Below are positions 2,262-42,982 of a stretch of 64,000 nt of DNA, in pieces. A program made the translations under genes and the position numbers. Each line of letters opens with the position of its first letter. The first letter of the stretch is position 1. The notes below the pieces were generated by a model. It made no database searches and was not told the DNA's origin. It was given only the letters and a program-made list of their open reading frames with translations. The DNA is taken from assembly GCA_002683405.1 (NCBI GenBank), contig NYTH01000039.1, positions 1 to 64,000 on the forward strand, written 5' to 3'. Origin of the DNA: Salinisphaeraceae bacterium. GTDB lineage: Bacteria; Pseudomonadota; Gammaproteobacteria; Nevskiales; Salinisphaeraceae.

Positions 2262-2493
2262 TCGGCCATTGGCCGTTTTCCTCCCGGTCTGCGTGTAGCG
2301 TTGGAGAAGACGCGGTGCTGGAGGAGGAAATTCCGGGTTGATAGCTGCGGCAATACTCGCCTTGGCGGAGGGTTAGCGCTTTCCAGAGGCGGCCATTGGC
2401 TGTTTTCCTCCCGGTCCGCGTTTTGCGCTGATAGAAGATGGTTGTTGGAGGAGGGAATTCCGGCCTGCTCGTTGGAGTAGAAACTGCTTCTAC

Positions 2494-2525
2494 GGGCCGG
2501 AATTGGTCGGGGTAGCAGGATTTGA
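2494..2525 (-). repeat. Truncated copy of tRNA-Pro 3' end plus flank
   Basis: These 32 bases are identical to 3071-3102. Bases 2504-2525 are the last 22 nucleotides of tRNA-Pro (3' half of the T-arm, acceptor strand and CCA) and 2494-2503 are its downstream flank. The match stops inside the T-loop and is followed by an unrelated hairpin cassette. Without 5' half or anticodon it cannot make a tRNA. Confidence 0.9.
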
Positions 2526-2640
2526 CCGGGAGGGCAGGAAGCCCGGACGGCGCGAGCGCAGCGAGTCCGAAGGGCGAGACGGATGAAGGACGAGCATGGC
2601 TCGGCCCCGGCGAGCGCCGCACAGGACGTGCGGCCGGGCG
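2526..2640 (+). repeat. Hairpin cassette (family alpha) abutting the tRNA-Pro fragment
   Basis: Reading away from the tRNA fragment, it contains GCTCGGCCCCGGCGAGCGCC at 2599-2618, shared with the cassettes at the tRNA-Thr and tRNA-Ser loci. Hairpin 1 is CGAGC-ATG-GCTCG (2591-2603). Hairpin 2 is GCCGCAC-AGGAC-GTGCGGC (2616-2634), a perfect 7-bp stem whose sequence differs from the equivalent stem at the other loci. It is probably a non-coding repeat; its function is unknown. Confidence 0.8.
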
Positions 2641-3080
2641 ACACTCAACCTTAGCGAGGACAGGAGTCCGAGCGACTCTCAAGGGAAATCGAAGCAGAGA
2701 CATCGCCACCTACGACCGTACTGACAGCCTCAGCAATGGATGTAGTGGTTGCCTACGTAACCGACGATTCATGGCGACGGGATTCCAGCCTGTTTTCTGC
2801 CGTAATACTCGCCTTGGCGGAGGGTTAGGGCTTTCCCGAGGCGGCCATTGGCTGTTTTCCTTCCGGTCCGCGTTTTGCGCTGATGGAAGGTGGTTGTTGG
2901 AGAAGGAATTCCGGCTTGGCCGTGGCGTAGAAATTGGCCGTGCGGAACGTTATAGCCTTCCGCGGGCGGCCATGTTCCGTTTTCCTCCCGGTCCGCGTAT
3001 AGCGTTGGAGAAGACGCGGTGCTGGAGGAGGAAATTCCGGCTTGATTGCTGGCGTAGGAACTACGTCGGTGGGCCGGAAT

Positions 3081-3157
3081 TGGTCGGGGTAGCAGGATTT
3101 GAACCTACGACCTCCGCCTCCCGAAGACGGCGCTCTACCAAGCTGAGCTATACCCCG
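3081..3157 (-). tRNA. tRNA-Pro (anticodon CGG)
   Basis: A 77-base cloverleaf on the minus strand. The acceptor CGGGGTA pairs with TACCCCG, the D-stem is GCTC/GAGC, the anticodon loop is TTCGGGA giving CGG, the T-loop is TTCAAAT, and CCA is encoded. It lies 5 bases after the ispB stop codon, so it is probably processed from the ispB transcript. Its 3' end is partly duplicated at 2504-2525. Confidence 0.96.
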
Positions 3158-4131: not shown

Positions 4132-4261
4132 CGTCTCGGCCAGCGGGAACCGCGCAAAGTTAGGGGCCGTGAATGGGGCTGTCAAGGAAATGCCATCTCG
4201 CAAAGGCAATCACCCGCCCGGAGAATGGCTGTTGCGGCGTGGGGTTCCTTTTGGAGGAGAC

Positions 4262-4745
4262 TCTGTGCCTTCGGCAAGCGCCCTTCGACAAGCTTCCTTC
4301 GACAGGCTTCCTTCGACAGGCTTCCTTCGACAGGCTTCCTTCGACAGGCTCAGGAGAACGGGCTGGGCTGGGGCGGTGGTTTTTATCGACGCCGTTCGGG
4401 TTGCGCTGGGTTGGTTGTTTTTATAGACACCGTTCGGGCTGAGCTTGTCGAAGTCCGGACCGAGCGGAGGCGGAAGCGTTGCGGGGCGTCATCGGCAAGC
4501 GCCCTTCGACAGGCTTCCTTCGACAGGCTCAGGAGAACGGGTTGGGCTGGGGTGGTGGTTTTATCGACACCGTTCGGGCTGAGGTCGTCGAAGTCCGGAC
4601 CGAACGGAGGCAGAGGTATTGCAGGGCGTGTTCGGCAGGTTCCCTTCGACAGGCTCAGGGTGAACGGGTTGAGAGGGGAGTTTTCGGTACCGTTCGCGCC
4701 GCTCGCACCGTTCGGGCTGAGCTTGTCGAAGTCCGCCCGTTTCGG
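4262..4745. repeat. REP-like inverted repeat cluster A (ispB-rplU gap)
   Basis: Alternating inverted motifs: forward type with GACAGGCTCAGG...GAACGG (near 4339, 4520 and 4646) and reverse type with GTTCGGGCTGAGCTTGTCGA (near 4433 and 4710, with a degenerate one near 4574). Forward and reverse copies are imperfect reverse complements, as in paired REP elements. At 4283-4338 a 14-base unit CTTCGACAGGCTTC is repeated four times in tandem before a final forward copy. No gene is seen between 4132 and 5023; apparent open frames are translations of the repeats. Confidence 0.88.
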
Positions 4746-31624: not shown

Positions 31625-31680
31625 GGAAGCGCGAGCGTGACTGGTTTTCAATGGCAGTAATGCCGGGATAGCTCAGTAGG
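31625..31680 (+). repeat. Upstream copy of tRNA-Thr leader and first 19 tRNA bases
   Basis: This 56-base segment matches 31774-31829 with three mismatches. Its last 19 bases (31662-31680, GCCGGGATAGCTCAGTAGG) are the 5' end of tRNA-Thr, ending exactly after the D-loop GG. The remainder of the tRNA is replaced by a hairpin cassette, so no tRNA can form here. Confidence 0.92.
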
Positions 31681-31759
31681 GCGAGCCGGATGTGGGACGA
31701 GCACTGCTCGGCCCCGGCGAGCGCCCGCCATGGAAGGCGGGCCGGATCGCGCAGGAATT
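31681..31759 (+). repeat. Hairpin cassette (family alpha) between the tRNA-Thr copies
   Basis: Starts right after the D-loop GG. Hairpin 1 is CGAGC-ACT-GCTCG (31698-31710). Hairpin 2 is CCCGCC-ATGGAA-GGCGGG (31724-31741). It contains GCTCGGCCCCGGCGAGCGCC, identical to the tRNA-Pro cassette, and ends in a GCGCAGGAATT stretch shared with the tRNA-Ser cassette. Confidence 0.88.
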
Positions 31760-31810
31760 TTAAGCGAGCACACGGAAGTGCGAGCGTGACTGGTTTTCAA
31801 TGGCAACAAT

Positions 31811-31886
31811 GCCGGGATAGCTCAGTAGGTAGAGCAGGCGATTCGTAATCGTCAGGTCGCAGGTTCGACTCCTGTTCCCGGCACCA
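31811..31886 (+). tRNA. tRNA-Thr (anticodon CGT)
   Basis: A 76-base cloverleaf: acceptor GCCGGGA/TCCCGGC, D-stem GCTC/GAGC, anticodon loop TTCGTAA giving CGT, T-loop TTCGACT, CCA encoded. It is preceded by a partial copy of its own 5' end 149 bases upstream. Confidence 0.97.
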
Positions 31887-31967: not shown

Positions 31968-32058
31968 GCCGGAAGGCGCTGGAATTCAGCGAGGGCAGGG
32001 ACAGCCCGAACGAAAACACCCGGTAGCGATTACGCAAACAGGAGAGGTGGCAGAGCGG
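31968..32058 (+). repeat. Upstream copy of tRNA-Ser leader and first 18 tRNA bases
   Basis: Matches 32119-32210 with few differences (period 151). Its last 18 bases (32041-32058, GGAGAGGTGGCAGAGCGG) are the 5' end of tRNA-Ser and stop right after the D-loop GG, the same breakpoint as at tRNA-Thr. The copy begins with GCCGGAAGGCG, the tail of a hairpin cassette, which hints at a further ancestral unit. Nothing recognisable lies in 31887-31967. Confidence 0.92.
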
Positions 32059-32137
32059 GCGAACCGGACAAAGGACGAGCACAGCTCGGCCCCGGTGAGC
32101 GCCCGCCAGGGATGGTGGGCCGGAAGGCGTAGGAATT
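32059..32137 (+). repeat. Hairpin cassette (family alpha) between the tRNA-Ser 5' copies
   Basis: Aligns along its whole length with the tRNA-Thr cassette. Hairpin 1 is CGAGC-ACA-GCTCG (32076-32088). Hairpin 2 is CCCGCC-AGGGAT-GGTGGG (32102-32119), where one pair has become G-T but the stem is kept. Confidence 0.88.
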
Positions 32138-32192
32138 CAGTGAGGGCAGGGACAGCCCGAACGACAACACCCGGTAGCGATTACGCATACAC

Positions 32193-32282
32193 GGAGAGGT
32201 GGCAGAGCGGTTGAATGCACCGGTCTTGAAAACCGGCAAGGGTGCAAGCCCTTCGTGGGTTCGAATCCCACCCTCTCCGCCA
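32193..32282 (+). tRNA. tRNA-Ser (anticodon TGA)
   Basis: A 90-base class II tRNA: acceptor GGAGAGG/CCTCTCC, anticodon loop CTTGAAA giving TGA, long variable arm AAGGGTGCAAGCCCTT, T-loop TTCGAAT, CCA encoded. Partial copies of its 5' end lie upstream and of its 3' end downstream. Confidence 0.97.
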
Positions 32283-32617
32283 ACATACAAAGGCCAGCAA
32301 AGTACAGATGGGCGCCGGTGGCTTAGTTCGGCACAATTCGAACCCACGAAGTGGGTCGACCGATTGGCCGGGAGCCAATCGGAACTGCCGAAGGCAGGCC
32401 CGAAGGGCGGAGCACAGGGATGTGCGGAGTAATCCCACCCTCTCCGCCAACATTCAGATGCCGGCAAAGTACAGATGGGCGCCGGTAGCTTTATTCGGCA
32501 CAATTCGAACCCACGAAGTGGGTCGACCGATTGGCCGGGAGCCAATCGACAGCTGCCGAAGGCAGGCCCGAAGGGCGGAGCACAGGGATGTGCGGAGTAA
32601 TCCCACCCTCTCCGCCA
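32283..32617 (+). repeat. Two tandem 167/168-base units each ending in the tRNA-Ser 3' end (family beta)
   Basis: The units end at the CCA of 32449 and 32617, and each last 19 bases (AATCCCACCCTCTCCGCCA) copy the T-arm/acceptor/CCA end of tRNA-Ser. Each unit also holds a 16-base inverted copy of the tRNA's T-arm (32336-32351, 32503-32518). In unit 1 hairpins follow in series: CCCAC-GAA-GTGGG, CCGATTGGC-CGGGA-GCCAATCGG (32360-32382), CTGCC-GAA-GGCAG, GCCC-GAA-GGGC and GCAC-AGGGAT-GTGC. The layout recalls the E. coli tyrT repeats. No gene is seen up to the fba start at 32739. Confidence 0.9.
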
Positions 32618-42740: not shown

Positions 42741-42982
42741 TTATCGGTTGCTAAAGAATTGAAAACCCGCGGAATTAGTCGATCGGCGGGTAGCCGTCGG
42801 TGGCTCGGCGGCGGGCAGTATGGTATAAACCGCCCGCGCTCGCGGCAACGCGGGCCGTTTTTTGACTCTTTACATACCATTCCACACGCAGTTCGGCACG
42901 GCCGGTTGGGTGTCCAGCGCCGCTTTAACGGGTGATCTGGATTTCCGGTTGGGAACTGCGGAGGCATAACCCGGAGCACAAT
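42741..42982 (+). promoter_or_regulatory. rpsB promoter/leader with an early hairpin
   Basis: An extended -10 (TGG-TATAAA, 42821-42829) lacks a clear -35. Just downstream, CCCGCG (42833-42838) can pair with CGCGGG (42849-42854), followed by six T residues (42858-42863), like a terminator or attenuator. A TTGACT at 42862-42867 could be the -35 of another promoter. The leader is about 120-150 bases; rpsB leaders in gammaproteobacteria are known to bind S2 for autoregulation. Assignment of start site is uncertain. Confidence 0.5.

Follow-up and report, generated by a model that had tools for sequence, protein, structure and literature searches.

Our analysis of a 64,000-nucleotide stretch of Salinisphaeraceae DNA (hereafter, the window) indicated that the hairpin cassette recurring beside its tRNA genes is probably a copy of a short, non-autonomous mobile element, here called alpha, which would insert 3′ of a GG and duplicate the target sequence upstream. 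The putative element (E) would span about 100–160 nt in the order GG|G(T/C)GAG, hairpin 1 (H1), hairpin 2 (H2), and a variable hairpin 3 (H3), and insertion directly 3′ of GG, with 18 to about 85 nt of upstream sequence duplicated beyond it, would yield the arrangement T1-E-T2-rest, in which T1 and T2 are the two target copies. The fixed insertion point, the duplicated target, the copies in murG, mtnC, and gph, and signs of transfer between lineages together point to a mobile element rather than to a tRNA regulator. As is generally expected of mobile elements, the same core was found at unrelated sites, and empty sites were present in relatives.

The alpha core, of about 66 nt with two hairpins, occurs three times on the plus strand of the window (Pro, Thr, and Ser copies), at the places recognized in a first-pass annotation of this DNA, whose H2 sequences were also confirmed as given. 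The pattern GGACGAGCNNNGCTCGGCCCCGG matched three times with no mismatch, compared with 0.04 occurrences expected when up to three mismatches are allowed. The Pro core (2572–2637; 72.8 bits with covariance model R1) lies antisense to tRNA-Pro and is predicted to fold into H1 at 2574–2615 and H2 at 2616–2634 (GCCGCAC-AGGAC-GTGCGGC). Its T1 (2494–2525) is an exact 32-nt copy of the 3′ part of tRNA-Pro plus flank, broken in the T-loop; T2 is the identical 32 nt at 3071–3102, at the intact tRNA-Pro (3081–3157, minus strand), and a longer imperfect repeat equates 2443–2525 with 3020–3102. An 85–125-nt direct repeat, unrelated to the hairpin core, also occurs four times around the Pro element (2263–3051). 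The T1 of the Thr copy (31625–31680; 56-nt alignment) comprises the leader and nt 1–19 of tRNA-Thr up to the D-loop GG. It is followed by the core (31679–31746; 87.3 bits; fold z −2.3), with H1 at 31681–31722 and H2 at 31723–31742 (GCCCGCC-ATGGAA-GGCGGGC), by a less conserved 3′ part of the element (31747–31773), and by T2 (31774–31829), in which the leader and the 5′ portion of the intact tRNA-Thr (31811–31886) are duplicated. At the Ser copy, T1 (31974–32058; 85-nt alignment) contains an H3-like hairpin, the leader, and nt 1–18 of tRNA-Ser up to the D-loop GG, the core occupies 32057–32124 (87.2 bits; fold z −3.2) with H1 at 32059–32100 and H2 at 32101–32120 (GCCCGCC-AGGGAT-GGTGGGC), and T2 (32125–32210) continues into the intact tRNA-Ser (32193–32282).

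Eight copies with at most one mismatch were recovered by a pattern search of the genome, and ten strong copies by R1, a model built from 11 sequences (ten from this genome and one from the relative G018). Nine of the ten were located at eight tRNA genes (Pro, Thr CGT, Thr TGT, Ser TGA, Ser GGA with two copies, Gly TCC, Gly CCC, and Arg CCT); the tenth lies within the beginning of murG, whose start is restored by a 27-nt duplication. Partial self-copies were observed near 16 of the 43 tRNA genes, in addition to a tRNA-Thr(TGT) split across two contigs. These copies break mostly at the D-loop (nt 18–22, upstream copies) or at the T-loop (downstream copies); alpha is in the sense orientation at D-loop breaks and antisense at the T-loops of tRNA-Pro in this genome and tRNA-Arg in G018. 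The remaining tRNA inserts belong to other hairpin families. Two tandem tRNA-like copies lie upstream of a tRNA-Gln(TTG) gene, with hairpin inserts in the apparent D-loop and anticodon loop, and the first 40 nt of tRNA-Arg(ACG) are duplicated 105 nt upstream with no hairpin element, perhaps as a remnant att site. The cassette extends beyond tRNA genes, with copies also in murG, mtnC, gph, and other genes; because of these copies and one in cca, a tRNA-specific regulator was rejected as the main reading.

Matches to R1 were present in 49 of the 85 genomes of the order, in 28 of 369 genomes of the class at a stricter cut-off, and in 2 of 398 genomes of the phylum, the last search being underpowered since only 12 candidates were scored per genome. 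Across 84,980 genomes, the core pattern identified 57 stretches, only one of which had the context of the element; it comes from an uncultured Salinisphaerales bacterium, the only named genome found in this way. Plasmid and phage records contained no DNA match to the Thr copy. Among 100 oriented copies from this genome and the order, the cores began with GGGTGAG (56), GGGCGAG (18), GGGCGAA (6), or GGGTGAA (5). Each copy begins just 3′ of a GG that belongs to a D-loop, to an antisense T-loop, or to the neighborhood of a conserved gene start. A flanking duplication above the 99% level of a null made by pairing flanks between different genomes was detected in 41 of the 100, and none above that level in the other 59; T1 ended within 3 nt of the first GG of the core in 31 of the 41 and within 5 nt in 35. 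Where it was clear, the duplication measured 18 to about 85 nt. Alpha also occurs in tandem arrays and as inverted doublets. In one genome (G165), dispersed inverted doublets each lie between ACAGGATTnAnCAGG and CCTGTnAATCCTGT, and in another (G103), a tRNA(CAT) gene is preceded by seven tandem units and followed by reversed ones, and all of these units carry parts of that tRNA.

Targets in relatives included tRNA D-loops and T-loops, rnpB, a glycine riboswitch, and the starts of mtnC, gph, cca, murG, mnmG, ddl, aroC, and other genes, the protein-gene and rnpB names being inferred by reading the sequence. Identical sites were occupied in different genera at mtnC, gph, cca, murG, and the 3′ end of a response-regulator gene. 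Where the target is present on both sides of the element, the gene remains intact: the glycine riboswitch scored 67.8 bits in the intact downstream copy (T2) and 33.6 bits in the upstream copy (T1), where the element cuts in. Because it is sequence 5′ of the element that is duplicated, genes survive if hit near their 5′ end in the sense orientation or near their 3′ end in the antisense orientation. A gene would be left whole only where the duplication extends past its end, which could account for the sense copies at 5′ ends (tRNA D-loops, murG, mtnC, gph, and cca) and the antisense copies at 3′ ends (tRNA T-loops, rnpB, and the response regulator), with purifying selection presumably retaining insertions that leave genes intact.

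The element also seems to travel between lineages together with the gene end that it borders. Among 20 genomes, 11 had an empty mtnC site, eight had an occupied or decayed one, and one (G080) was ambiguous; several of the mtnC copies within one genus may represent a single inherited insertion. In the relative G017, the outer copy of the mtnC start, T1 (MTIRAILTDIEG), resembles the empty-site sisters G056, G082, G083, and G084, with which it shares an extra codon and an overlap with the upstream stop, while the inner copy, T2 (MIKAIVTDIEG), is of a type found in other genera. In this one case, compared by eye and without a tree, the outer copy thus appears native and the inner copy foreign-looking. 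Over 22 coding T1/T2 pairs, drawn from related genomes that are not fully independent and read in frames chosen by hand, 46 of 61 codon differences were synonymous, against 21% expected (p = 3e-19), indicating that both copies evolved under coding constraint. Most simply, T1 and T2 evolved in different lineages, and from the synonymous bias we infer a foreign origin of T2 beyond G017 mtnC as well. T1 has decayed in some copies, with a stop in G048 and changes in G039. Cores were 79% identical within a genome and 71% between genomes (0/500 permutations), as would be expected if copies also multiply inside genomes. Both processes may operate in the proposed mobile element: multiplication within a genome, and movement of E with its T2 gene end between lineages, the latter possibly through recombination between orthologues in T.

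The copies of this genome folded by minimum free energy into two adjacent hairpins, a fold not obtained by minimum free energy alone for the diverged G018 copy. The first-pass annotation had described H1 as a conserved CGAGC/GCTCG stem varying only in its triloop; the stem is indeed invariant in 11/11 copies, but H1 extends further, into an overlooked basal region in which this apex is followed downwards by GG/CC, then a bulge, then a stem of five pairs, and finally, beyond a GA/GA internal loop, a GC/GC pair. Because CGAGC/GCTCG never varies, it supplies no evidence of covariation. In an 11-sequence alignment constructed without structure, covariation in H1 was found mostly in the basal stem (pairs 7:40, GC/AU/GU; 8:39, CG/GC; 18:34, GC/CG; 10:37; and 4:43), one basal pair being broken in the Pro copy (A.G at 8:39). 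Standard pairs made up 92.7% of the H1 pair cells, and five pairs showed two-sided changes, a number reached by 0/500 shuffles and contrasting with at most one two-sided pair in slid controls. In the eight copies with a 7-bp-type H2, all 56 of 56 positions paired (shuffle mean, 44.3; 0/10000).

The annotation had further argued, from three copies, that compensatory changes preserve the stems under selection on structure, and had called for more copies, in which unpaired stem changes would speak against this. With ten strong copies from this genome and over 100 from its relatives, the compensatory pairing is now borne out: in 111 distinct model-found sequences, a set biased towards the model that both selected and aligned them, 98.5% of pair cells paired, so that this counter-evidence did not materialize, 19 of 20 pairs carried double changes, and double-change cells numbered 493, compared with 134.6 in shuffles and at most 70 in slid controls. 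Selection on the fold, or at least its strict maintenance, is thus well supported by the covariation tests, although not by the H1 stem originally cited. On the element's own strand, G.U outnumbered A.C (38 to 7 in the model-fitted alignment), which leans towards a transcript rather than DNA-level upkeep of an inverted repeat. Templated repair is able to correct inverted repeats, and the tandem arrays indicate frequent local duplication; tandem duplication at GC-rich palindromes, whether by slippage or by unequal crossing-over, could in principle mimic selection on structure if the arms corrected each other by template switching and so stayed paired. We regard this account as highly improbable, given the same core at unrelated loci in many genomes, the 5′ end fixed at GG, the foreign-looking T2 at mtnC, and the large excess of G.U over A.C, since palindrome correction should be strand-symmetric.

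The strong covariation and the G.U excess would also suit a regulatory RNA of the host, namely a structured element leading or trailing tRNA and gene transcripts and kept for its role in attenuation, processing, or stability; the partial gene copies would then be parts of the regulator, for instance tRNA halves that compete or a mini-ORF that terminates at the TGA of the element. Copies do lie at positions that are probably transcribed, at several coding sites T1 becomes a short ORF that ends at GG|G TGA, and the loops often contain AGGA/AGGGA. However, the targets have no common function, the orientation relative to the gene reverses between 5′ and 3′ ends, T1 has decayed in the copies mentioned above, and R1 had no match in the family's 16 other genomes, so a regulatory role appears unlikely. 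For the mobile element, the fold may instead be required for movement, and it would be kept because a mobilizing factor, supplied in trans, most likely recognizes the folded element as single-stranded DNA or RNA. Insertion at GG with a long, variable duplication could result from target-primed copying with staggered cuts or from template switching of a nascent 3′ end.

Candidate mobilizers showed no association with the element across the 85 genomes, where presence or absence has little power to reveal an enzyme that is lost or distant. A Y1 transposase gene is present in this genome and common in the order, with no association with alpha (30/49 element-bearing versus 24/36 element-free genomes) and no match in the element-rich G036, G023, and G056. 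Reverse transcriptase was absent from this genome and from several element-rich ones (no RVT_1 in G000, G017, G084, and G022), IscB was absent from this genome, an RRXRR domain occurred in only 1/85 genomes, and no cargo-bearing version of alpha was seen. These observations bear on the view that a Y1 (RAYT) transposase, since lost from many genomes or active from a few, uses the hairpins as REP/REPIN-like substrates. To our knowledge, IS200/IS605-type single-strand insertion would not be expected to duplicate tens of target bases, and the long duplications at gene ends, together with the Y1 distribution, render this view improbable, despite the fixed 5′ head (GG|GTGAG/GCGAG), the tandem clusters, and the BIME/REPIN-like inverted doublets. 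REP, REPIN, and BIME sequences with RAYT transposases are likewise short, dispersed hairpin repeats, some of them clustered or in inverted doublets (PMC2817692, PMC3116915, PMC6006769, PMC3733652), and REPs are known inside genes too (PMC3733652), whereas alpha lacks the GTAG/GTGG or CGTC tag (PMC3733652, PMC6006769).

The alpha element also differs from other small mobile sequences. It resembles MITEs in being short, non-coding, multi-copy, and flanked by direct repeats, but single copies have only a fixed 5′ end and no evident terminal inverted repeats, and the duplications are of variable length (18 to about 85 nt) rather than fixed and short. Rickettsia palindromic elements are palindromes inserted in genes, and alpha-like hairpins (GGGTGAGGCGG...CCGCCGAACGCC) were likewise observed in a dozen viral contigs, within an apparent gene for the large subunit of a phage terminase. 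Two of these elements, RPE-4 and RPE-6, are CGTC REPs (PMC3733652), whereas alpha has no CGTC tag and its gene ends are duplicated, not interrupted. Mitochondrial double-hairpin elements, GC clusters, and repetitive hairpin-forming elements are mobile hairpins of small genomes; they differ in being mitochondrial, and captured gene ends do not appear in the parts of their descriptions consulted (PMC2800124, PMC4478555). Integrative elements in tRNA genes (phages and ICEs) similarly restore the displaced gene end, but alpha, at about 100–160 nt, has neither integrase nor cargo and uses many unrelated targets. Relaxed Rfam matches were derived from tRNAs or riboswitches or were below the gathering score, with none on alpha, HEARO included, and no description of alpha was found in open-licence papers. 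The family is absent from Rfam release 15 and would be overlooked or misread as tRNA pseudogenes.

We know of no accepted origin for the partial tRNA copies beside tRNA genes, such as the tyrT repeats of E. coli K-12, which contain four further copies of the final 19 nt of tRNA-Tyr beyond the gene pair. The RtT/tyrT repeats (RF00391) share with alpha the tandem hairpin-rich units by a tRNA gene and a partial tRNA copy broken in the T-loop. Two tandem RtT-like units (beta) lie after tRNA-Ser (32283–32617, plus strand), which have a related layout, are unmatched by the alpha model, and share the 19-nt break from T-loop to CCA, ending in copies of the last 19 nt of tRNA-Ser (32431–32449 and 32599–32617), whereas alpha breaks at the D-loop GG or the antisense T-loop. 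These units are built of GAA/AGGGA mini-hairpins, and a similar unit follows tRNA-Ser(CGA) elsewhere in the genome. The RtT model gave no match at E<=0.5 in 17 loci of this genome, alpha or beta, while positive controls scored 133–138 bits in E. coli and 66 and 59 bits in the relative G010; conversely, R1 scored only 8.8 bits on the E. coli tyrT repeats, no match. Alpha further differs from RtT in also occupying D-loops, gene starts, and other RNA genes, with a variable duplication length and scattered copies. It is therefore neither RtT by model, nor REP by tag, nor a classical MITE, and we file it as a new, previously unnamed variant of miniature mobile hairpin elements.

The tyrT-like layout seen here would then be a single instance within a broader family of mobile hairpins, whose members also insert into a riboswitch, rnpB, and conserved gene starts and leave these whole. 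More tentatively, alpha could represent a class of homing hairpins of about 100–160 nt that integrate at GG near gene ends, capture the displaced end, and spread horizontally from orthologue to orthologue with it, without Y1, reverse transcriptase, or an IscB-type nuclease, the E. coli tyrT/RtT repeats being an offshoot; we consider this broader proposal possible but doubtful. If the mechanism is new, it would offer another route for bacterial DNA movement and make gene 5′ ends and leaders exchangeable between lineages. In the alpha-free G010, repeats of about 180 bp lie downstream of several tRNA-Arg genes and a tRNA-Tyr and end in 19 nt of the respective tRNA, a 22-nt one is found at tRNA-Val, and some of the G010 repeats match RtT (RF00391), suggesting that the RtT-like layout is wide. 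Elsewhere in the window, clustered CTTCGACAGGCTCAGG-type repeats lie upstream of rplU (4260–4740), and a t44 RNA match (RF00127, 62 bits) was found at 42865–42970.
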